From assembly GCA_022823725.1 (NCBI GenBank), contig JAJEHL010000015.1, positions 1 through 64,000 on the forward strand: DNA of 64,000 bases. The letters run 5' to 3'. How positions within the stretch are numbered: the stretch's first letter is position 1; the number at the start of each line of letters is the position of its first letter. The position numbers and the translations under genes were made by a program. The notes below the pieces were generated by a model. The model saw nothing but the letters and a program-made list of their open reading frames with translations. It did no database searches and was not told the origin of the DNA. This document shows, piece after piece, positions 20,642 through 36,798 of the stretch. Origin of the DNA: Candidatus Latescibacterota bacterium (lineage in GTDB: Bacteria > Latescibacterota > UBA2968).

Positions 20642-20746
20642 TTAATCCCCAAAATTGTAAAAAAACAGAAATACGCGGTGGAAATCACAAATACGCGGGG
20701 ACTTTTTGGGTTGAATTTACAGGCGTGACAGTATTATCATAAAAGA

Positions 20747-20812
20747 GCCGCTGACAAGACCATGGCTAGTCATCTGTCAGCGGCGACAAATATCTCAAGC
20801 TGATAACTTGAG
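20747..20812. promoter_or_regulatory. Inverted repeats, possible activator-binding region
   Basis: GCCGCTGACA (20747-20756) is exactly repeated in inverse orientation as TGTCAGCGGC (20775-20784), followed at once by CTCAAG/CTTGAG (20794-20799, 20807-20812). No T run follows. The block lies about 200-260 bases upstream of the sigma54 promoter, within the range used by enhancer-binding proteins, so it may be an upstream activating sequence. It could equally be a structured RNA or a mobile-element trace. Confidence 0.35.
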
Positions 20813-21006
20813 AAGGTTAAACTAAGGTAGCGACCCCAGGCGCGGTTGTCAATGCGAATTAAAGTGTCTGAGGACAAATTGTTCAGGGGCAGGTGAACGA
20901 TGTTTTCCACTTCTCAATGCGATATTTAGTCTGGATTTTGCGCGATAATAATTCTATGTAAAGTAAAAATAATGGTTTACAAATATTATTCTCTAAAAAG
21001 CTCAGA

Positions 21007-21024
21007 TTGGCACACAGGTTGCAT
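21007..21024 (+). promoter_or_regulatory. Sigma54 (RpoN) promoter of the accessory island
   Basis: TTGGCACACAGGTTGCAT contains the -24 element TGGCAC and the -12 element TTGCA with the exact 5-base spacing of the RpoN consensus (TGGCAC-N5-TTGCW). Transcription would begin near 21034, giving a leader of about 56 bases to the ATG at 21090. The match is much better than any sigma70-type candidate in this gap. Sigma54 needs an AAA+ activator; none is encoded in the window. Confidence 0.65.
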
Positions 21025-21089
21025 ATATCTGTTTGAGTAGCAAGTATTTTGAATGTGAGAGTAGAAATCTTTTGGCGTACGGAGAAAAT

Positions 21090-21809
21090 ATGAACGAGCA
21101 GAAAGTACTAATTGTAGATCGCGACTCCTGCGTTGTATCGACTCTTTGTGAATACTTGAGTAATGAACTTTACGATGTATTCACCGTGAGAAATGGGACA
21201 GATGGTCTTGAAACTTTGAGACGCGAGAAGATTGATCTCGCTGTGGTTGACAAAGATATAAGAGACCTCGATGCGATATCTCTTTTGACTTGTCTAAAGG
21301 GTGAGGAAATTCAAACAAATGTTCTGATCATGGGGGGGATGGAACGCCTGGAATCAATGGAAAGGATGCTCAAGCTGGGTACTGTAGGTGTACTGGATAA
21401 ACCGATCAGCAAGGATAAATTTTTAGCGAAGGTCAAAAAATTTATGCCTTCTCCCGATTGGATAAAAAGGAGTTTTGAGTCGTTTTTGGAAGAGCATTAC
21501 AGCGATCCGGAGCTGAATTTTGATGACCTTATGAACCATTTCGGGTTTTCCAGATCCCACGGTTGCAAACTGTTCAAAAAACATGTGGGCAAGGCTTTCT
21601 CAGAAAAATTGAGGGAGATCAGGGTTTCACGAGCACAGCATTTGATAAAAGAACCCTCAATATTAGTCTATGAAATTGCAAGTGCATGCGGGTTTCTTTC
21701 GCCAAATCGTTTGCGCGAGGCTTTTAAGACCATACACGGAATGCCGCCTACCGAGTACCGCACAAAAGTTATGCGCGGGGAAATTCAGGCGTTTTCGGAA
21801 GATGTTTGA
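21090..21809 (+). CDS. Orphan response regulator: receiver domain with AraC-type DNA-binding domain
   Basis: A 239-residue regulator. Residues of about 4-120 form a receiver domain: acidic residues D10 and D12, probable phosphorylation site D54 (AVVDKD), and the switch lysine K104 (LDKPI). The Ser/Thr normally found about 28 residues after the phospho-Asp is replaced by glycine (LIMGG), so signalling may be atypical. Residues of about 135-230 are an AraC-family double helix-turn-helix (MNHFGFSRSHGCKLFKKHVG, then IASACGFLSPNRLREAFKTI, GMPPTEYR). No kinase gene is adjacent. The start at 21090 has GGAG upstream. As first gene behind the sigma54 promoter it probably controls the export and maturation genes that follow. 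Confidence 0.85.
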   Translation: MNEQKVLIVDRDSCVVSTLCEYLSNELYDVFTVRNGTDGLETLRREKIDLAVVDKDIRDLDAISLLTCLKGEEIQTNVLIMGGMERLESMERMLKLGTVGVLDKPISKDKFLAKVKKFMPSPDWIKRSFESFLEEHYSDPELNFDDLMNHFGFSRSHGCKLFKKHVGKAFSEKLREIRVSRAQHLIKEPSILVYEIASACGFLSPNRLREAFKTIHGMPPTEYRTKVMRGEIQAFSEDV

Positions 21810-21846: not shown

Positions 21847-23127
21847 ATGGCACATAGTGAAAAGATTGTAAAGTTCAATGGCTATCCCCAAAAAGATGTG
21901 TCTTTTGAAAACACAGAGGCGCGAGAAGCTCTCTCAACTTCGGGGATTGGCTTTCGGTTTGTGCGCTATTTCTTGCTCACCATTTTATGCGTTGTGGGAA
22001 GTATGGTCGCGTTTATATGTCTTTTGGGCTGGCATCTGGGTATGGAAATTACGGTTGCAGGACAAGGTCGTTTGCAGCCCACTGCGCGTTATGAAGTGAA
22101 AGTGCAACGATCAGGCTTGATCCAGGCGGTTCATGTGCAACACGGACAAGAAATTAGACAGGGCGATTTGATGCTGACTTTAGATGATACCGATTTACGC
22201 ACGGAATTGGAACAATTCGAGCATGAACTGGCGATAAATCAGAATCGGCGTGTGGCTCTCGTGGCAGAATTGCAACGCGAGCGTGCTGTTTTGGAAACAG
22301 AGATTGCACGGACTGAAGTAGAGTATGAGACCGCAAAGTTACAATTGGAACAGGTTCGGCAAGAATACCAGATCTACCGCAAATACGCGCCTTCTCGTGA
22401 GGATGGAAGCATGCGACCGCCTGTTGATACGTTGATTCCTATTCGGGTGCATCAGACGCGGGTGCAACGTGGAGAAGTAGAAATTGAGCGAGCAAAAAGA
22501 CGGTTGATTGCTCTGGACAATCGCCAGGAGGAATTGAAGACCCTGGAGCAGATGTACGAAAAATTACAGGTCAGCCATCGCCTTATCAAAACACGTTTGG
22601 AAAAGATGAAGATATACGCCCCTGTTTCTGGTACCGTGCTGACGCGCGATTTGGTTAAACGCGAGGGAGACCGCATTGAGGCAGGTGAGGCCGTGATCGA
22701 GTTGGCCGAGTTGCACAGTTGGCAAGCAGAGGTGATGATTCAAGAAGTGGATATCCCAAAGGTGAAAGAGGGACATAAGGTACGGATCTATGTGAATGCT
22801 TTTCCTCACATGGAATACAAGATTTTTGAGGGTAGGGTGACAGATGTGCCGAGAAAACCCGAACCCGTCACACCTATGAGTGCCAGTCTCGTACCGGGCG
22901 GTATGAGTACTGTATATCCTGTGAAGATCAGTGTGATAGATCCGCATTTATCTGACGGAGAATGTCCGCTTGCTTATGGTATGGGAGTGGAAGCAAAAAT
23001 TGTGACAGAACGCGGTCCCATCGTTGACTTGCTGTGGAAGAAGTTTTTGAAAACCGTAGGCAAAATTGGGCGTCCTGAGATTTATCGGTTGGAAGAATCC
23101 CTTGAAACCGTACAGACCGGGAACTGA
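21847..23127 (+). CDS. HlyD-family membrane fusion protein (ABC exporter adaptor)
   Basis: A 426-residue periplasmic adaptor anchored by one membrane helix (about residues 38-60, RYFLLTILCVVGSMVAFICL). Then comes the first lipoyl-like half (VKVQRSGLIQAVHVQHGQEI), a long coiled coil (about 120-270), and the second half beginning APVSGTVLTRDLVKREGDRI, followed by a beta-barrel domain. This is the HlyD/EmrA-type layout used in type I secretion and peptide export. It ends 2 bases before the ABC transporter, so the two form one exporter. No TolC-type outer-membrane gene is present in the island. Confidence 0.88.
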   Translation: MAHSEKIVKFNGYPQKDVSFENTEAREALSTSGIGFRFVRYFLLTILCVVGSMVAFICLLGWHLGMEITVAGQGRLQPTARYEVKVQRSGLIQAVHVQHGQEIRQGDLMLTLDDTDLRTELEQFEHELAINQNRRVALVAELQRERAVLETEIARTEVEYETAKLQLEQVRQEYQIYRKYAPSREDGSMRPPVDTLIPIRVHQTRVQRGEVEIERAKRRLIALDNRQEELKTLEQMYEKLQVSHRLIKTRLEKMKIYAPVSGTVLTRDLVKREGDRIEAGEAVIELAELHSWQAEVMIQEVDIPKVKEGHKVRIYVNAFPHMEYKIFEGRVTDVPRKPEPVTPMSASLVPGGMSTVYPVKISVIDPHLSDGECPLAYGMGVEAKIVTERGPIVDLLWKKFLKTVGKIGRPEIYRLEESLETVQTGN

Positions 23128-23129
23128 AT

Positions 23130-24845
23130 GTGCGTCAGATACTCAAAATCATCAAAATGCTCCGTCCTTACTGGCGGTTTATCTTCCAATCCCTCCTCGT
23201 GGGTATCATGGTCATGTTCTTGCAAATTCCGGGACCGTACATCACCAAGGTTTTGATTGATGACGTGTATCCCCACAAAGACTACACGCTCCTCACCTTC
23301 ATTATGATTATAGGTGCTGTGCTTTCGACAGGGGTGGGTTTTACAGGACTGTTAAGCACTTATTTTGGGCGTTATGTGGGTATCAACATGGGACTGGATT
23401 TCAAATCTCGGTTCTACTCCCATGTGCAATCTTTGGACTTCAGCTTTTTCGACAATCGTCAGACGGGTGAAATCCTGTCTCGATTCAGGGATATGGACCG
23501 ATCTATCAACAGCACCATTGGAATGGTGAATAGTTTGATTATGAACACGCTTCAGTTGCTCATTTTTCCACCTATCTTGCTTTATATCAACTGGAAACTG
23601 GCTCTGATCAGTTTGGCGGTACTGCCTTTTGATACCGTGTTGGTTATGATTTCAAAGAAATATCTCAGCAGAGTGTCAAAAGAAGTGACCGAAGTAGCGG
23701 CTGAGTCATCCGCTAAGTCCTACGAATCGCTGTCAGGTATTCGCACTGTACAGGCACTGGGACTGGAAGCCGCGTTTTATCACAAGCTCAGAGATATCTT
23801 TCTCAATGTTGCAATATTGAGAATCAGGTCAACGCATTTAAGTGGGGGATTTGGATTTATAGGGTCGTTGGTGAAAACAGCGGGTACGTTGGCTTATGGT
23901 TGGTATGGCTGGACGCAAGTTCTGAACGGCAATCTTTCGCTGGGTAGTTATATGGCTTTTTCGGGGTATGTGGGGTATCTCTACGGTCCAATAGGCAATC
24001 TCATCGGCCTTGTGGGACAGGTTGAAATGGCATTGGTTCGCATCAATCGCTTTTTTGAAGTCTATGATCTGAGACCCGAGATTCAAGATCGTCCCGATAT
24101 GCCTGTGTTGCCCCGGGTGCGTGGTGAGATCGATTTTCACGATGTGAGTTTTTCGTATCAAGAAGATCAACCCGTTTTGCACCACATCAACCTGCACATC
24201 CCCGCACAAGCTACTATTGCATTGGTCGGTAAGAGTGGGTCTGGCAAATCCACACTTGCCAAATTGATCCCGAGATTTTACGACCCGCAAGAGGGCTATG
24301 TGTCTATAGATGGGTACGATATTCGGAACTATCGCTTAAAATCCATCCGGCAGCAGGTGGGATTTGCCCTGCAGGGCAGCACCTTGTTTCAGGGTAGTAT
24401 TTTAGACAACCTGACCTTTGGACACGACATACCCTTGCGAGATGTTCAGGCTGCGACACACGCAGCGTACATCCACGACTTTATTGCATCATTGCCCGAA
24501 GGATATGAAACACTGGTGGGCGAGCAGGGAGCACAGATGTCGGAAGGACAGAAACAGCGCATTGCCCTATCGCGTGTGTTGTTGATGGACACGCCTATTC
24601 TGATATTAGATGAACCCACTGCCGCACTGGATATGGAGTCTGAATATCACATTCAAGAAGCATTGAAAACCGTGCGACAAGGCAGAACCACCCTCATTAT
24701 TGCACACAGACTTTCAACCATCCAAAACGCAGATGAGATTGTGGTATTGGATGAGGGACAGATCGCAGAGCGGGGCACGCATGAGTGGTTAGCGATGCAA
24801 GATGGAGTTTATGCTCATTTGTATGAAAAAACAGCAAGTATATGA
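23130..24845 (+). CDS. ABC exporter, fused membrane and ATPase domains
   Basis: A 571-residue half-transporter: six predicted membrane helices in residues of about 15-300 and an ATPase domain from about 330. Walker A is GKSGSGKST, the signature is MSEGQKQRIALSR (Glu in place of the usual first Gly), Walker B is ILILDEPTAALD, and the switch His is in IIAHR. There is no N-terminal C39 peptidase domain, so any leader removal must be done by another protein. The start is a GTG at 23130, two bases after the HlyD stop; the overlapping ATG is out of frame. Fits export of a peptide or small protein together with the HlyD adaptor. Confidence 0.88.
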   Translation: MRQILKIIKMLRPYWRFIFQSLLVGIMVMFLQIPGPYITKVLIDDVYPHKDYTLLTFIMIIGAVLSTGVGFTGLLSTYFGRYVGINMGLDFKSRFYSHVQSLDFSFFDNRQTGEILSRFRDMDRSINSTIGMVNSLIMNTLQLLIFPPILLYINWKLALISLAVLPFDTVLVMISKKYLSRVSKEVTEVAAESSAKSYESLSGIRTVQALGLEAAFYHKLRDIFLNVAILRIRSTHLSGGFGFIGSLVKTAGTLAYGWYGWTQVLNGNLSLGSYMAFSGYVGYLYGPIGNLIGLVGQVEMALVRINRFFEVYDLRPEIQDRPDMPVLPRVRGEIDFHDVSFSYQEDQPVLHHINLHIPAQATIALVGKSGSGKSTLAKLIPRFYDPQEGYVSIDGYDIRNYRLKSIRQQVGFALQGSTLFQGSILDNLTFGHDIPLRDVQAATHAAYIHDFIASLPEGYETLVGEQGAQMSEGQKQRIALSRVLLMDTPILILDEPTAALDMESEYHIQEALKTVRQGRTTLIIAHRLSTIQNADEIVVLDEGQIAERGTHEWLAMQDGVYAHLYEKTASI

Positions 24846-24894
24846 TGTGAACTTGGCCTTCGGGGGCTTAATCTTTTTCACAAGGAGATTTGCT

Positions 24895-25347
24895 ATGCAA
24901 CTTTGCAAGAAACCTGTACATTCTTATGGCAGGTATAAACAGGCTGTACAATTGTACATGCCAGGATCAAGCTCACCACCGACAGCTTTCGTAGAAGCGT
25001 CAGTAGAGGTAGGAAAAGAGGTTGCCGAATCCCTGGTAGATATTGGCAATGCAGCTCTTGAAGCCGCTGATAGGCTTACTGATGACTTCTTTACTAATGG
25101 GATTGAGTTGTGGGGCGGTGACCTTCCAGGAGGGGGTCGTGAGACCACAGTGGCACAATATCCATTCGTTTCAACGCAATATAACAACAGAGAGCCTGAC
25201 CCCGGAGTCCCTGATTCCGTTAGTGTCACTGTACCATTCATCCCGCCATTCATCCAGAAGAGAGTTACACTTCCAATAGTGCCAGAAGATGCACCAGAAA
25301 CAGATACAGATGACGACGAAAAGAAAAAATCAACAACGGGGGATTAA
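24895..25347 (+). CDS. Small protein in the exporter operon, candidate exported substrate
   Basis: A 150-residue protein with no family I recognise. The ATG at 24895 has AAGGAG at 24882-24887. The first 25 residues are basic and aromatic (MQLCKKPVHSYGRYKQAVQL), then comes an acidic amphipathic helix (about 33-67), then a Gly-rich turn (LWGGDLPGGGRE) and a C-terminal half rich in Pro, Val, Asp and Thr ending in a highly charged tail. There is no signal peptide. Its N-terminus loosely resembles that of the small protein at 31473 (MQ-L-K-K/R...H...Y...V..Y.P). Placed directly after an exporter and before proteases, it could be the precursor that is processed and exported; this is inference. Confidence 0.65.
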   Translation: MQLCKKPVHSYGRYKQAVQLYMPGSSSPPTAFVEASVEVGKEVAESLVDIGNAALEAADRLTDDFFTNGIELWGGDLPGGGRETTVAQYPFVSTQYNNREPDPGVPDSVSVTVPFIPPFIQKRVTLPIVPEDAPETDTDDDEKKKSTTGD

Positions 25348-25418: not shown

Positions 25419-26210
25419 ATGATGAGCAGCAATAAAAATTTAAAATCTACACCATGGCCACGCGAAGTCGATATAGGATTTGGTCGAGGTATTGTTCTGA
25501 CAATCACTGTGTTTTGCGGTAGCAGGTTATTGTACTGGATCTCTGACTATACCCAAAAAACTGTTCTATCTTTTTTTGATTACACCCTAAGTAATACCGG
25601 CATTGGTATCGAAATCTATACTGGTATTTTAGTCATTTTGGGGTTTATTCTTGTTTACATATTTGTCCAAAGGATTGGGAAAATCAATATCCAAACCCTA
25701 TTGTGGCATACGCCACCTTCATTAAAACAAGGTATTAAATGGGTATTTTGGGGTTTTTGCTTGTCCTTTTCCTTTTGCTTGCTTCAACTATATGGAAAGG
25801 GTTACATGATAAAAGACTATAGCGATAAGTCTTTTCTATATGTTTGTACAATAACATTTATTGACATCGCAGTGTCTGGTATTTTGGCTCCAATTAAGGA
25901 AGAAATCTCTGAGAGAGGTATTCTTTATCCAGCTCTGAGAAAAAAAGGAAAGATAATAGCGTATTTTTTTTCTGTATTTTGGTTCGTATTCCTTCATGTA
26001 CCTTCGTATTCAAATTTGTTTTTTAATGGCATTATAGGGCTTACACTGCACCACTTCATTTTTATTATTTTGATGGGAATTATTACAGCGTATATTTATG
26101 AATCCACTGGAAAGCTTATACTGTGTGTTATTTTTCACAGCGCGAGTAATGCGACTCTTACAATGAGTTCCTTCTTGTATTACTTGATCACCCAAATCAT
26201 TATAGCGTAG
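25419..26210 (+). CDS. CPBP-family intramembrane metalloprotease
   Basis: A 263-residue membrane protein with about six to eight hydrophobic helices. The three CPBP (Abi, Rce1-like) motifs are present: EEISERG (EExxxR), FVFLH (FxxxH) and HSASN (HxxxN), all in the C-terminal half. Members cleave CAAX-type or bacteriocin-related peptides, or serve as immunity proteins in bacteriocin clusters. Here it lies between the small protein and the TPR/subtilase genes, which makes processing or immunity plausible. The sequence is visibly more AT-rich than the housekeeping genes, suggesting recent acquisition. Confidence 0.82.
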   Translation: MMSSNKNLKSTPWPREVDIGFGRGIVLTITVFCGSRLLYWISDYTQKTVLSFFDYTLSNTGIGIEIYTGILVILGFILVYIFVQRIGKINIQTLLWHTPPSLKQGIKWVFWGFCLSFSFCLLQLYGKGYMIKDYSDKSFLYVCTITFIDIAVSGILAPIKEEISERGILYPALRKKGKIIAYFFSVFWFVFLHVPSYSNLFFNGIIGLTLHHFIFIILMGIITAYIYESTGKLILCVIFHSASNATLTMSSFLYYLITQIIIA

Positions 26211-26283
26211 ATGATAAATGCGCTCTGCTGAGGTGTGTGTTCAGGTATTCAGGATACGCGACATCAATGTCGGAAAAAATAAA

Positions 26284-27201
26284 ATGCAAAAAATAAAATC
26301 CTTCTTTTTATGGATGGGCATTGTGCTTGCAGTCGTTATTGGGAGCACGCTTATTTGGCCGTATTTGAATTATGCCAATTCTGAATATTGGCATAATAGA
26401 GGTAGAGCTTTTTATGATAAAAAAAATTATGAAAAAGCTCTAAAAGCGTTTGAGCATGCGATATCTTTGGATCCAAATTATACCTCTGCCTATCAGTGGA
26501 AGGCGGCGGTTTATCTCGCAACGGAGTCTTATGATCAAGCCATTGACGCCTATGACCAAATCCTTGCATATAGCCCTGATAATCCCAAAATAGTACTTCT
26601 GAAAGGGCAGACTCATGCCAGGGCGAAACAATTTGAAGTGGCACTCGAAATATTTGATCAGGCGATTAGCACGGGAATCGATAGGCCCGTGAAGATTCAG
26701 AATGGCACATTTTCTTTTCAGTATTTACTATTGATCCAGAAATCAACGGCACTGATGGAGTTGGAGCGGTATGAAGAGGCACTTAGCGCACTTGAAGCCG
26801 CACTTCAAAAGTCATCTAAAGATGCTAATTTGTGGCATAGCAAAGGTGTGGTACTACTGATGATGGAACGGTTTGAAGATGCTATCAAATGTTTTGACTA
26901 TGTTCTTCAGATAGATCCGGATTCTACTAAAGCTACTGTGGCCTGGAATAACAAAGGAGTTGCATTGTTCGGATTAAAGAAATACGATGATGCTCTCAAA
27001 GCGTTTGATCAAGCACTTCTACTCGACGCTGATTATGACTCGGCCTGGTATAGTCGTGCCCGTGTCCAGGTCTCTTTGGGCAATCGAGATTCTGCCGTTT
27101 CTTCCCTGCAAAGGGCTATTGCATTGAATCCTGATCAGAAACAAAATATGCAGTCAGATGAAGCATTTCAATTCCTGAAAGGTTTGGAAGTTTTTAAATA
27201 G
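26284..27201 (+). CDS. Membrane-anchored TPR protein
   Basis: A 305-residue protein with one N-terminal membrane helix (about 7-28, FFLWMGIVLAVVIGSTLIWP) and then six to seven tetratricopeptide repeats, for example YWHNRGRAFYDKKNYEKALK, AYQWKAAVYLATESYDQAID, AWNNKGVALFGLKKYDDALK and AWYSRARVQVSLGNRDSAVS. TPR arrays bind other proteins, so it may scaffold the maturation enzymes at the membrane. I use the ATG at 26284 because the helix starts there; the open frame extends 22 codons further upstream. It ends 2 bases before the subtilase fusion gene, so they are almost surely translated together. Confidence 0.82.
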   Translation: MQKIKSFFLWMGIVLAVVIGSTLIWPYLNYANSEYWHNRGRAFYDKKNYEKALKAFEHAISLDPNYTSAYQWKAAVYLATESYDQAIDAYDQILAYSPDNPKIVLLKGQTHARAKQFEVALEIFDQAISTGIDRPVKIQNGTFSFQYLLLIQKSTALMELERYEEALSALEAALQKSSKDANLWHSKGVVLLMMERFEDAIKCFDYVLQIDPDSTKATVAWNNKGVALFGLKKYDDALKAFDQALLLDADYDSAWYSRARVQVSLGNRDSAVSSLQRAIALNPDQKQNMQSDEAFQFLKGLEVFK

Positions 27202-27203
27202 AA

Positions 27204-29138
27204 ATGCCAAGTCCAAATACTTCAAGCATTATAGAGAACAGAATGCGTGATAAGCAGGTTGTGAAAGTAGCTATTATCGACAGTGGTATTGATATATCAC
27301 ATTCGAGCATTGGGGTGATTGCAGGTGGTGTAAATATCTCGATTAATAAAGATAGTCATTTTATTTATTCTGAAGAAGTCGCCGATTGTGCAGGGCATGG
27401 TACGGCGTGTGCTGGAATTATTCGTAAGAAGGCTCCTGATGCGGCACTGTATAGTGTGCGGATTTTTGATGAGTCTTTGATAGCAGGCGGACGGGTGTTA
27501 ATTGCCGCGATTCAGTGGTGTATTGACAATGAGATGGATGTGGTGAATTTGAGTCTGGGCACGACGGATGTGACGTTTAAGGAGGCTCTCCAAAAGGTGT
27601 GTCGCAAGGCGGTTGATACTGGCGTGATTCTCGTAGCTGCTGAGAGCAATGACGGGGGTGAGAGTTATCCTGCGGTATTTCCCGAAGTGATTGGTGTCAC
27701 AGGTGGTGCGATCCATGAAGTAGATGGATTTTATTTCCGCAAGGATCTCCGCATCGAATGTGTGGCGCGGGGCGATGAACAGCGCGTGTGCTGGTTAAAC
27801 GGAAAACATATTATGACTGGGGGTAATAGCTTTGCTGCCCCCCATATTACGGGCATTATCGCACGGTTTTTAAAACAGCATCCCAAATGTTCTGTTCAAG
27901 ATATTCGGCTATTATTACAAAAAAAAGTATTAAGTGAAATTCCTCAGAATAAAAATAAGTCCAAATCTGATGGTCAGTCACACCGAAAAAACTTTCAAGA
28001 GGACTATGCCCATATCAAAAAAGCCGTGTTGTATCCATATAACAAAGAGATGCACAGCATGGTGCGCTATAGCGATTTACTCGCGTTTGAGATTGTCGGT
28101 GTAGCCGATCCCATTGGTAAGGGAATGGTAGGCAAAGATGCGGGCAAAGTGATTGGCGAATCTCAGGTAAATTTGCGGATTAGTCCGAATATCCGCCGTG
28201 CTATGGCAGATGCGGATACGCTCATTCTCGGCTATGTGGATCAACTATCTCGTATCCGCAAGCGCGATTTGCTCAGAGAATATGTGCAATTGGCTCTTGA
28301 TGCGGGATGCCATGTGTTCAGTTTTCAGGCACTTGATCCAAACCTTTACGGTGATCTGTATGAGTTGGCGGATAAAAAGGGTCTGCGCCTTGTCTATCCT
28401 CATATTTATAGCGAAGAAATCGCGTATGCGATCCAGCATTTCAACGCGCTCCCGCCTGTGGATGTGCCCGTGCTTTCTGTAATGGGTACGAGTTCTCAGC
28501 AGGGCAAGTTCACCTTGCAACTCGCGCTCAGGCGCAGGCTTATCCAAAAAGGGTATAAAGTCGGGCAGATTGGCACTGAGCATCACTCTCGGTTATTCGG
28601 CATGGATGCAGCATTTCCAATGGGCTACGCTTCGCCACTCAAACTGCCATTTCAACATTACATACCGTATCTGGATTACAAAATGCGAGAGATCTGCCAG
28701 CGCACACAGCCCGATATTATCCTGACAGGCTCTCAGTCGGGGACCATTCCCTATCATGTCCAGGAACACAGCACACATTGCTTGTCTTCACTGGCGTTTT
28801 TACTGGGTGTGAAACCCGATGCCTGCATTCTGGTGGTCAACAGCATTGATGCAGAAGAATACATCCGAGATACAATTGATGGCATACGTGCCGTGTGCAA
28901 AGCACCGGCTATCTTACTCGCGATGGGAGACCACGAAAAACATATCCGAACAGCTTATGGGCGCAGTATGATCACGCCCAAAAAGATGGCACAATCTCAA
29001 ATTGATTGTCACCTGAAAAAATTAGAAGATAATTTTTATGTGCCCGCGATTGAGATTCTTTCGGAGACGGGTCAACAGCGTCTTGTGGAAACTGTGATTC
29101 AATATTTTTCAAAGGATGATACATCAACTATCGCATAG
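27204..29138 (+). CDS. Subtilase (S8) fused to a DUF1611/DgcN-like P-loop protein, copy 1
   Basis: A 644-residue two-part protein. Residues of about 18-245 are a subtilisin-like protease with the triad D26 (VAIIDSGID), H65 (GHGTACAGI) and S209 (GGNSFAAPH). The usual oxyanion-hole AAGN is AAESN. There is no signal peptide or propeptide, so it should act in the cytoplasm. After a Lys/Ser-rich linker (about 250-275), residues 280-640 resemble DUF1611 (DgcN-type): a Rossmann-like half (FEIVGVADPIGKGMVG) and a P-loop half (MGTSSQQGKFT at about 427, QIGTEHHSRLFGMD, DIILTGSQSG). I know of no described S8-DUF1611 fusion. The gene is followed 8 bases later by an acyl carrier protein gene. A role in peptide maturation is inferred from context. 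Confidence 0.85.
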   Translation: MPSPNTSSIIENRMRDKQVVKVAIIDSGIDISHSSIGVIAGGVNISINKDSHFIYSEEVADCAGHGTACAGIIRKKAPDAALYSVRIFDESLIAGGRVLIAAIQWCIDNEMDVVNLSLGTTDVTFKEALQKVCRKAVDTGVILVAAESNDGGESYPAVFPEVIGVTGGAIHEVDGFYFRKDLRIECVARGDEQRVCWLNGKHIMTGGNSFAAPHITGIIARFLKQHPKCSVQDIRLLLQKKVLSEIPQNKNKSKSDGQSHRKNFQEDYAHIKKAVLYPYNKEMHSMVRYSDLLAFEIVGVADPIGKGMVGKDAGKVIGESQVNLRISPNIRRAMADADTLILGYVDQLSRIRKRDLLREYVQLALDAGCHVFSFQALDPNLYGDLYELADKKGLRLVYPHIYSEEIAYAIQHFNALPPVDVPVLSVMGTSSQQGKFTLQLALRRRLIQKGYKVGQIGTEHHSRLFGMDAAFPMGYASPLKLPFQHYIPYLDYKMREICQRTQPDIILTGSQSGTIPYHVQEHSTHCLSSLAFLLGVKPDACILVVNSIDAEEYIRDTIDGIRAVCKAPAILLAMGDHEKHIRTAYGRSMITPKKMAQSQIDCHLKKLEDNFYVPAIEILSETGQQRLVETVIQYFSKDDTSTIA

Positions 29139-29146
29139 GAGGGGTT

Positions 29147-29425
29147 ATGTCTATTGAACATCGGGTCAAACAGGTGATCATTCGCACGTTGTCTCTTGAA
29201 GTTGATGCAGACGAAATTGACGATGAAGACGAACTTTTTGGAGGTGGACTGGGGATTAATTCAATGGCGACGATTGAGATTATTGTGGGCCTGGAAGAGG
29301 AATTTGGCATTGAGGTGCCAGATGAAGATTTGCGCGTGGAACTGTTTGATAGCGTGCAGACCATGGCCGATTATGTTCGTGCAGTGTTACAGAAAGTACC
29401 TGAGGTCGTCGGACAGATAGAATAG
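29147..29425 (+). CDS. Acyl carrier protein, copy 1
   Basis: A 92-residue member of the acyl/peptidyl carrier protein family: helix one around HRVKQVIIRTLSLE, the phosphopantetheine site in GGGLGINSMATIEIIVGLEE (Ser39; Asn precedes it instead of the usual Asp), then FGIEVPDEDL and a helix-four region ending VQTMADYVRAVLQ. It would carry an acyl group on a 4'-phosphopantetheine arm. It has an AGGAGG ribosome site and lies between the subtilase fusion and the papain-fold protein. No fatty-acid or polyketide synthase genes are nearby, so it seems dedicated to this pathway. Confidence 0.92.
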   Translation: MSIEHRVKQVIIRTLSLEVDADEIDDEDELFGGGLGINSMATIEIIVGLEEEFGIEVPDEDLRVELFDSVQTMADYVRAVLQKVPEVVGQIE

Positions 29426-29468
29426 ATTTTTTGCTCGCACTCAGATGATATAGCTTTTGAGACATATT

Positions 29469-30488
29469 ATGAAAAAAACACTTCCCATCCAGGTATCCCC
29501 ACCCATACACGGCTATCCTCGCCATGGCTATCGGCTTTCGATTATGTCACTTCAGGATGATTATATTCCCTGGTTCTTCTGCAATTACATCCAGCTATTT
29601 GCCGTTGACCTGTTGCATGAGAGCAAACACAACATCCGATTCAACTTCTATTTTCAAGGCCAGTACTCCCCGCCGTGGCTGTCTATCTACACTGTTCCAA
29701 GGCGATCAATCGTCAGAGTATATAACCAGATTGTGCCGTTTATTCGCGATCAAATTGATGAGGGCTTCTATGTCCAGTTAACTGCCGATGAGTATTTCTT
29801 GCCGCATACATCATTTTATGAGAAAATACATCATCCACATGCTATTATGGTATTCGGATACGATGACGATACAGAAACGCTTGAGACTCTGGGATTCAAT
29901 CGAGCGCGAAGTTACGCTGTTTCAAGGGTTGCATATTCAGATTTTGAAGCAGCGTTTCGCTGGGTTGATCCCGAGAAACCCAGATCGTACCTGGTGACTC
30001 TTTTTGAGTATAATGAGGACGGTATCTATGAATTTGACATTGACGCTGTCATTGATCAGTTGCGAGCCTATATCCATTCTGAGAATCCGTCTATCCACTA
30101 TCGGACATTGCGTAAGCCAGTTGAAGGCGTCTTTGGGATGGCGACGTATAAGCTCTTGCGAGATTACTTTACGCATTTGTTTGTTCATCCTCGGTTGTGG
30201 GATCGTCGGCATCTGTTCACGCTTTGGGAGCACAAGCGTTGTATGTTAAACAGGCTTGCTTATCTGGAGAAGCACGGGTATTTGCGTCCGTCAGACCAGT
30301 TTCATCAGGCGTACAAGGAGGTTGAGCATAAGGCGTATCAGATTCATTTGATGATGCTTAAATTGCGGGCGTTAGGGGAGATTAAGAGAACGTGGGATGT
30401 GGATCGTATTCTGAAGATTATCACCTTGTTAGATGATATTTATCAAAGGGAAGAGCGCATTTTGAAGAATGTTTTGAAAGCCCTTTGA
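29469..30488 (+). CDS. Putative papain-fold (C39/BtrH-like) protein, possible acyltransferase, copy 1
   Basis: A 339-residue protein that I recognise only loosely. It has no signal peptide. Cys38 (IPWFFCNYIQL) and His124 in HPHAIMVFGYDDD fit a Cys...His dyad: the H-x3-V-x-GYDDD segment is the second motif of C39-like and BtrH N-terminal proteins. BtrH transfers an acyl group from the carrier protein BtrI to an amine in butirosin synthesis, so pairing with an acyl carrier protein makes an ACP-dependent acyltransferase reasonable. The C-terminal third is helical and charged (YLEKHGYLRPSDQFHQAYKE). The ATG at 29469 is the conserved start shared with copy 2 (MKKTLPIQ / MKKSLPIQ). About 37 of 339 residues differ between the copies. 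Confidence 0.75.
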   Translation: MKKTLPIQVSPPIHGYPRHGYRLSIMSLQDDYIPWFFCNYIQLFAVDLLHESKHNIRFNFYFQGQYSPPWLSIYTVPRRSIVRVYNQIVPFIRDQIDEGFYVQLTADEYFLPHTSFYEKIHHPHAIMVFGYDDDTETLETLGFNRARSYAVSRVAYSDFEAAFRWVDPEKPRSYLVTLFEYNEDGIYEFDIDAVIDQLRAYIHSENPSIHYRTLRKPVEGVFGMATYKLLRDYFTHLFVHPRLWDRRHLFTLWEHKRCMLNRLAYLEKHGYLRPSDQFHQAYKEVEHKAYQIHLMMLKLRALGEIKRTWDVDRILKIITLLDDIYQREERILKNVLKAL

Positions 30489-30552: not shown

Positions 30553-30777
30553 ACATCAATTTTTTGCGTTTTGCGAGGTAGTTGAAGAGGGCGGTGTCAA
30601 AGGGTTCTGAGGTTTCGAGGAGGACGTAGTCGATCATGGCTTCGCGGCATTCGCGGCGGTAGCGGTCGATGAGGGTTTCCATGTGGTCGCGGTACTCGGG
30701 TGCGAGATGCCAGAGTTCTGTGGCGATTCGCGTGCCGGATTCGAGATCGACAAAGCGCATTTCGCGGTTGAAGTCGC
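30551..30777 (-). pseudogene. 3' fragment of the DUF58 gene
   Basis: This stretch encodes the last 70-75 residues of the DUF58 protein at 35908-36798, beginning within the segment DFNREMRFVDLESG and ending at the same stop. Over the 69 residues from MRFVDLES to KRKKLM I count only two differences. It has no start and is cut off abruptly at about 30777, where the sequence switches to an ABC-exporter fragment on the other strand. It is a by-product of the duplication that made the two maturation modules. Confidence 0.85.
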
Positions 30778-31057
30778 GCTTGCACGAGTGTTATTGCAGA
30801 ACACACCCATCTTGATTTTAGATGAACCCACTGCTGCACTGGATAACGAATCTGAGTTTTATATTCAGGAAGCGATGAAGGAAATTTGCAAACAAAGGAC
30901 CGTGATCGCGATTGCCCATCGTCTGTCAACCATTCGGCGTGCTGACAAAATCGTGGTCATTGATCAGGGAAGAATTGCAGAAGAAGGTAGCCACGAAGTT
31001 TTGATGCTGCAAGATGGCGTTTATTCCATGCTCCAGGAGCGAGCCGCGAGGATTTGA
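30772..31057 (+). pseudogene. 3' fragment of an ABC exporter gene
   Basis: The last 94 residues or so of an ABC exporter ATPase: VALARVLLQNTPILILDEP (end of signature region and Walker B), IAIAHRLSTI (switch His), ending VYSMLQERAARI. Walker A and all membrane helices are missing. It is only about half identical to the end of the intact exporter at 23130-24845, so it comes from a different exporter gene. The frame is open further left (to 30683), but those codons are the antisense of the DUF58 fragment. It is followed 1 base later by a zinc-ribbon gene. Confidence 0.85.
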
Positions 31058-35907: not shown

Positions 35908-36798
35908 TCACATCAATTTTTTGCGTTTTGCGAGGTAGTTGAAGAGAGCGGTGTCAAAGGGTTCTGAGGTTTCGAGAAGGACGTAGTCGATCATGGCTTC
36001 GCGGCATTCGCGGCGGTAGCGGTCGATGAGGGTTTCCATGTAGTCGCGGTACTCGGGGGCGAGATGCCAGGGTTCTGTGGCGATTCGCGTGCCGGATTCG
36101 AGATCGACAAAGCGCATTTCGCGGTTGAAGTCGAGGTCGCGTTCTCGGGGGTCCAGGATGTGGAAGACGATGACTTCGTGGTTGCGATGGCGAAAGTGTT
36201 TGAGGCCGTTGAGCAGGCGATCCGGGTCGTCGAAGAGGTCGGAGATGACGATGACGAGGCCGCGGCGCACAATGCGTTCGGCGAGTTCGTGAAAGGTGGC
36301 GGCAAGGTCGGTGTCAGTGCCTTCGGGGCTGGTGTTTTGAAGGGTGGTCAGGAGGGTGTGCAGATGACTGGTGACCGAGCGGGGCGGCAAATACGTGCGA
36401 ATGCGGTCGTCAAAGGCGATTAGTCCGACGGCGTCGCGCTGGCGCAACATGAGGTGGGATAGGGCGGCTGCGGTATAAGATGCGTATTGGAATTTGGAGA
36501 TGGCGTCCGAGCCATAAGCCATTGAGGCACTGGCGTCTATGAGGAGATGGGATTTGAGGTTGGTTTCTTCTTCGTATTGTTTGACGTAGAGGCGGTCGGT
36601 TTTGCCAAATACTTTCCAGTCCAGGTCGCGCAGTGAGTCTCCCGGCATATATTGACGGTATTCGGAAAATTCGACGGAGAATCCGTGGTAGGGGCTTTGA
36701 TGCAGGCCGGTAATAAATCCTTCGACAACCATGCGGGCGATCAGGTCCAGGCGTGCGAGCCGGGAGACAACTTCGGGTTTGAGATATTCCTGGTTCAT
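35908..36798 (-). CDS. DUF58 protein (MoxR-associated, von Willebrand A-like)
   Basis: A 296-residue cytoplasmic protein. The DUF58 signature GFSVEFSEYRQYMPGDSLRD is followed by LDWKVFGKTDRLYVKQYEEE, then a von Willebrand A-like fold with LLIDASASMAYG (DxSxS metal-binding motif) and LVIVISDLFDD. DUF58 proteins usually accompany MoxR AAA+ ATPases in chaperone-like complexes; no moxR lies here. I start at the ATG at 36798, two bases after the ChrA stop; the frame continues upstream but inside chrA. A 3' copy of this gene lies at 30551-30777. Confidence 0.88.
   Translation of the reverse strand: MNQEYLKPEVVSRLARLDLIARMVVEGFITGLHQSPYHGFSVEFSEYRQYMPGDSLRDLDWKVFGKTDRLYVKQYEEETNLKSHLLIDASASMAYGSDAISKFQYASYTAAALSHLMLRQRDAVGLIAFDDRIRTYLPPRSVTSHLHTLLTTLQNTSPEGTDTDLAATFHELAERIVRRGLVIVISDLFDDPDRLLNGLKHFRHRNHEVIVFHILDPRERDLDFNREMRFVDLESGTRIATEPWHLAPEYRDYMETLIDRYRRECREAMIDYVLLETSEPFDTALFNYLAKRKKLM

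Follow-up and report, generated by a model that had tools for sequence, protein, structure and literature searches.

The accessory operon analysed here lies in a 64-kb stretch of DNA (64,000 nucleotides, referred to below as the window), and the sigma54-type element in front of it appears, from comparison with related genomes, to be one layer of a control cassette that is repeated in the genus. The operon is probably governed by a two-layer circuit, triggered by sigma54 and autoactivated by an AraC-type regulator, rather than by RpoN alone.

The sigma54 layer and its conservation in the genus

The sigma54 layer and the first gene of the operon consist of the following features.

21008-21023, + strand: sigma54 -24/-12 element TGGCACACAGGTTGCA (TGGCAC-N5-TTGCA), identified by pattern scan, genome counts and genus conservation
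21034, + strand: predicted sigma54 transcription start, placed from the -12 GC at 21021-21022
20893-20910, + strand: dyad GTGAACGATGTTTTCCAC, candidate enhancer (UAS) for a sigma54 activator, conserved in aligned genus promoters
21090-21809, + strand: receiver/AraC-HTH regulator of 239 aa with no AAA+ domain (Pfam Response_reg and HTH_18), whose ATG is shared by relatives

The initial annotation described TGGCAC-N5-TTGCA with exact spacing 66 bases before the first gene, and the element is present as claimed. The span 21007-21024 corresponds to TGGCACACAGGTTGCA plus one flanking base on each side, its GG-to-GC distance is 10 bp, as in the -24/-12 geometry, and the regulator ATG at 21090 lies 66 bases past its last base. 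A TTG start at 21033, which gives a longer ORF, was dropped in favour of this ATG because the latter is preceded by GGAG and is kept in relatives. The exact pattern has a single match in the window, and when up to two mismatches are allowed, the 26 matches found against 21.9 expected are at chance level, so that the perfect copy alone rises above background. TGGCAC-N5-TTGC occurs 57 times in the genome as a whole versus 10 times for a reversed-pattern control (5.7-fold), and 12 of 30 examined copies are located just 5' of a same-strand ORF, versus 64 of 600 random positions (about fourfold, with ORFs defined simply by their length). We have high confidence that TGGCACACAGGTTGCA would work as a sigma54 promoter.

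The machinery for such a promoter is encoded in the genome, in which both of the components that the annotation proposed to look for were found, viz. rpoN (PF04552 at C40:20806, 1.8e-59) and genes for enhancer-binding proteins, with 20 strong AAA+ activators based on PF00158 matches. All 20 lie outside the part of contig C47 that the window covers. Since the first gene, as the annotation had stated, is a receiver/AraC protein without an AAA+ domain (only Response_reg and HTH_18 are matched in Pfam), a separate enhancer-binding protein acting from elsewhere is needed, which agrees with the second regulator that had been postulated. The G000 activators that could be retrieved with full reading frames were set against those of G004, G007 and G008, and no activator family tracked the presence or absence of the promoter footprint across these genomes. 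Several families are missing in G008; however, G004, which also lacks the footprint, has them, and assignment of the activator by presence or absence was therefore ruled out. Two expanded families of giant AAA+ activators were observed in G000, one of about 1090 aa (C11, C15, C27, C42) and the other of 1170-1660 aa (C32, C33, C35); they have no close counterparts in G008 and several of them have a sigma54 site nearby.

Queries with both the regulator and the promoter footprint against the 11 genomes of the genus showed that TTGGCACACANNTTGCANRTATCTG or a near copy of it is present at about 20 loci in 9 of the 11 genomes. At 19 of 20 footprint loci it heads a receiver/AraC paralogue, so the scan of homologous clusters suggested in the annotation did find the same element; two of these 19 are in this genome, where the second copy is on contig C49. 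At the remaining locus, G002:C13, the gene behind the element is sulfotransferase-like (named by eye), and an orphan paralogue at C35 of this genome is preceded by a different sigma54 site, TGGCACGGATATTGC. In the genus promoter alignment, the -24/-12 bases are 98% identical in pairwise comparisons, which is the best value for 228 windows of the same shape, whereas the 5-bp spacer shows 78% identity and the part of the 5' UTR that lies 40-68 nt behind the element shows 40%. The contrast between the core and the flanking 5' UTR points to selection and not merely shared descent. At four loci (L132, L135, L141 and L146; G006:C56, G010:C406, G001:C186 and G003:C87) receiver sequence has been lost with the promoter intact, and three of the four are reduced to a near-AraC-only protein. 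G004 has no footprint, yet it keeps three RNA/regulator loci, so the cassette can do without its sigma54 layer.

Further conserved blocks are seen upstream of -24/-12 in the genus alignment, giving a long footprint, and one of them, GTGAAC-N5-TTTTCAC, is centred about 108 bp upstream of -24; sigma54 enhancers usually lie about 70-150 bp upstream (PMC3844500). The form of this dyad in relatives is GTGAACAATGTTTTCAC, and in the window copy the right arm is longer by one base. The dyad 15-mer occurs at these promoters and elsewhere in coding frames only, and its use as a probe for other targets was given up, the remaining matches being in coding frames or at chance. The dyad is a candidate enhancer for the sigma54 activator. 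In its GG/GC distance, the position of the dyad, and the presence of rpoN and AAA+ activators, the system is similar to sigma54 -24/-12 promoters with an enhancer (PMC3844500), but unlike these it has another promoter and a structured RNA stacked in front of it.

The upstream promoter, direct repeat and structured RNA

About 300 bp upstream of the sigma54 site, in the same intergenic gap, lie the features below.

20669-20698, + strand: direct repeat AAATACGCGG-N10-AAATACGCGG with a 20-bp period, putative regulator site 12 bp before the -35
20711-20740, + strand: sigma70-type promoter TTGAAT-18-TATCAT, scoring 9 of 12 in the scan and kept at paralogous loci
20743-20854, + strand: two-hairpin structured RNA element (model R1, 126.5 bits here)
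20747-20784, + strand: hairpin 1 of this element
20793-20813, + strand: hairpin 2 of this element

The earlier statement that no comparable sigma70 box is present in the gap does not hold, as the box at 20711-20740, with its 18-bp spacer, is conserved in the genus: the paralogous loci share TTGNAN-18-TATYAT, and a score of 10 of 12 is reached at L091. With respect to the repeat, its computed self-match over 20 loci peaks at a lag of 20 (9.85 of 12, versus 6.24 in shuffles), and none of 300 shuffles reaches 7. Further, the repeat sequence tracks the HTH of the regulator across the loci (partial Mantel r 0.55-0.56, p 0.0002, after controlling for the similarity of RNA and promoter), although this correlation could come in part from linked inheritance despite the use of the nearer RNA and promoter as controls. 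The exact AAATACGCGG-N10-AAATACGCGG has one copy in the genome, before the regulator's own gene, and a whole-genome scan for other targets of the regulator gave only repeats with three mismatches, few above the control count.

AraC/XylS-type autoregulated promoters have tandem half-sites with a period of about 21 bp. The arrangement in the window is similar, with direct repeats one 20-bp step apart before a weak -35 and an HTH_18 regulator; it differs in its period of 20 bp, in that the site is putative, and in being coupled to sigma54. In an AraC-type operator one would look for tandem units spaced by about two turns of the helix, adjoining the -35 and specific to the regulator. The repeat shows this arrangement, apparently with regulator specificity, and is likely to be the binding site of the receiver/AraC regulator, through which, we infer, the regulator would control its own synthesis. 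Because the repeat adjoins the -35, autoactivation seems likelier than repression. As seen by eye in the alignment, the phosphoacceptor position is Glu in most paralogues, while the window regulator and its nearest orthologue keep the Asp and are missing the usual Thr/Ser switch residue; these features would fit control of the regulator by synthesis and not by phosphorylation.

Model R1 has 38 matches in 10 of the 11 genus genomes, and none in 49 more distant genomes under strict filters or in viral contigs; nor did any of 4227 Rfam models match the element, with E-values of up to 5 allowed. Its 3' box is TTGTCAATG. The computed fold z-score is -4.66 for the window RNA, and the values overall are from -3.7 to -5.1. 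Across 30 RNA copies, 97.7% of the pair cells are kept, and the variation is modest, with 10 cells at two pairs changed on both sides in a compensatory manner. In the same copies 13 G-U cells are seen on the + strand, which favours an RNA, and + strand transcription, over a DNA palindrome. The first RNA alignment was gathered with a pattern fixing hairpin 1, so that the invariance of this hairpin is partly built in, and the variation is carried by diverged copies recovered in the model search. It was also observed that the hairpin-1 strand GACAA is able to pair with a conserved downstream TTGTC box (20840-20854), and that in diverged copies GACAG occurs together with CTGTC; this joint change hints at an RNA switch.

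The proposed circuit and other readings

In the circuit that we consider probable, the sigma54 promoter would fire once an enhancer-binding protein, probably located at the dyad 20893-20910, is activated, and would start a transcript near 21034 that covers the receiver/AraC gene and then the exporter and peptide-maturation genes. In this scheme, regulator synthesis would first be switched on by sigma54 and its activator. The regulator, probably bound at 20669-20698, would then activate its own upstream sigma70-type promoter (20711-20740), from which transcription would read through the two-hairpin leader RNA and probably into the regulator gene, since no + strand terminator was found between the RNA element and the sigma54 site or regulator gene in the window scan.

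If instead sigma54 alone controls the system, then the sigma70-type promoter would make a separate RNA ending before the regulator gene. At L091, L094, L095 and L102 the RNA is 3' of the regulator gene and has its own promoter and a hairpin resembling a terminator, with the next gene convergent. The RNA can therefore form a gene of its own, and of the two promoters the sigma54 site is closer to consensus. However, L092, L103 and L121 have no sigma54 site, the RNA promoter is their only evident promoter, and just 26-71 nt separate the RNA element from the regulator ATG; together with the missing terminator in the window, this makes the sigma54-only explanation unlikely. The claim that the whole system is under RpoN is hence not upheld, given the upstream promoter, repeat and RNA and the paralogous loci without a sigma54 site. 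A bolder reading would be that a transferable cassette caps varied cargo, with the RNA gating the autoactivation loop and only the sigma54 start, which is 3' of the RNA, bypassing the gate. The gate may be a switch between hairpin 1 and an alternative pairing, in which the GACAR strand is taken up by YUGUC, the conserved box further downstream. We regard this scheme as speculative and similarly unlikely.

Two other readings concern the elements themselves. The conserved hairpins could be paired DNA operators and not RNA, as perfect palindromes with variable centres also suit protein dimers on DNA. In a DNA palindrome, however, the + strand G-U cells would be mismatches, and the doubly changed cells, the fold z-scores and the conserved promoter of the same direction, which ends at the base of hairpin 1, speak against this reading as well, so that it is distinctly improbable. 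Less probable still is a reading in which TGGCAC-N5-TTGCA has decayed as a sigma54 site or fallen silent, or is bound by another factor. Many genomic matches to the consensus are no promoters, and 14 of the 30 examined here are intragenic, but this copy is intergenic, correctly oriented and of exact sigma54 geometry, its core is near-invariant over about 20 loci with a diverged flank, and rpoN and activators are present in the genome.

The cargo operon and significance of the cassette

The two-layer circuit would control the following genes behind the regulator.

21847-23127, + strand: HlyD-family export adaptor, 37 bp past the regulator gene
23130-24845, + strand: ABC exporter, permease and ATPase (family matches)
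24802-25347, + strand: small protein, possible precursor, with no family match; the true start may be inside the ORF
25419-26210, + strand: CPBP (Rce1-like) intramembrane protease (family match)
26218-27201, + strand: TPR protein (family match)
27204-29138, + strand: subtilase (QhpE-like) fused to a TIGR04066/DUF1611-like peptide maturation domain (NCBIfam, below cut-offs)
29147-29425, + strand: acyl carrier protein (family match)
29457-30488, + strand: BtrH_N-like protein, weak (24.7 bits, cut-off 29.7)

We interpret this cargo as genes for maturing and exporting a peptide, of which the precursor is a candidate only. It resembles QhpE-like subtilase and TIGR04066 systems in combining a subtilase and a TIGR04066 domain with a carrier protein and an ABC/HlyD exporter, but here the two domains are fused and score under the curated NCBIfam cut-offs (133.8 versus 200 bits for TIGR04066 and 153.6 versus 165 bits for QhpE). 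Other cassettes are followed by glycosyltransferase-like genes (L088 and L090, by eye) or by carrier protein-subtilase sets (L105). The constant part thus appears to be the cassette and not the cargo, paralogous cassettes heading unrelated genes.

Downstream, at 30554-30781 on the - strand, the 3' end of the flanking DUF58 gene (35911-36798) recurs with 95% identity, and the C-terminal fragment of an ABC protein (30683-31054) comes next. Both stem from an old tandem duplication that took in the carrier/subtilase/BtrH unit and is also found in G009:C292. The same DUF58 gene adjoins sigma54/receiver-AraC loci also at G002:C32 and G007:C1:6333000-6343000, and this recurrent neighbour suggests a fixed hot spot and not a freely moving island.

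In Myxococcus xanthus, sigma54 controls natural-product clusters from promoters that are mostly intragenic, and the activator Nla28 is known (PMC7910581). The likeness to our case is that accessory biosynthetic genes are under sigma54 promoters, whereas the promoter described here lies between genes, ahead of a regulator that has no AAA+ domain. As a sigma54 promoter, the site is of a familiar type, and what is new is the stacked cassette with its undescribed RNA, by which a candidate RNA family missing from Rfam is added. A promoter guess has in this way grown into a circuit that can be put to the test, proposed for the accessory secretion clusters of a poorly known, uncultured genus, in which the starting signal (sigma54 and its activator) and the upkeep of expression (the regulator's own site) are both framed. 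In addition, AraC-type recognition could be read from the covarying pairs of regulators and operators.
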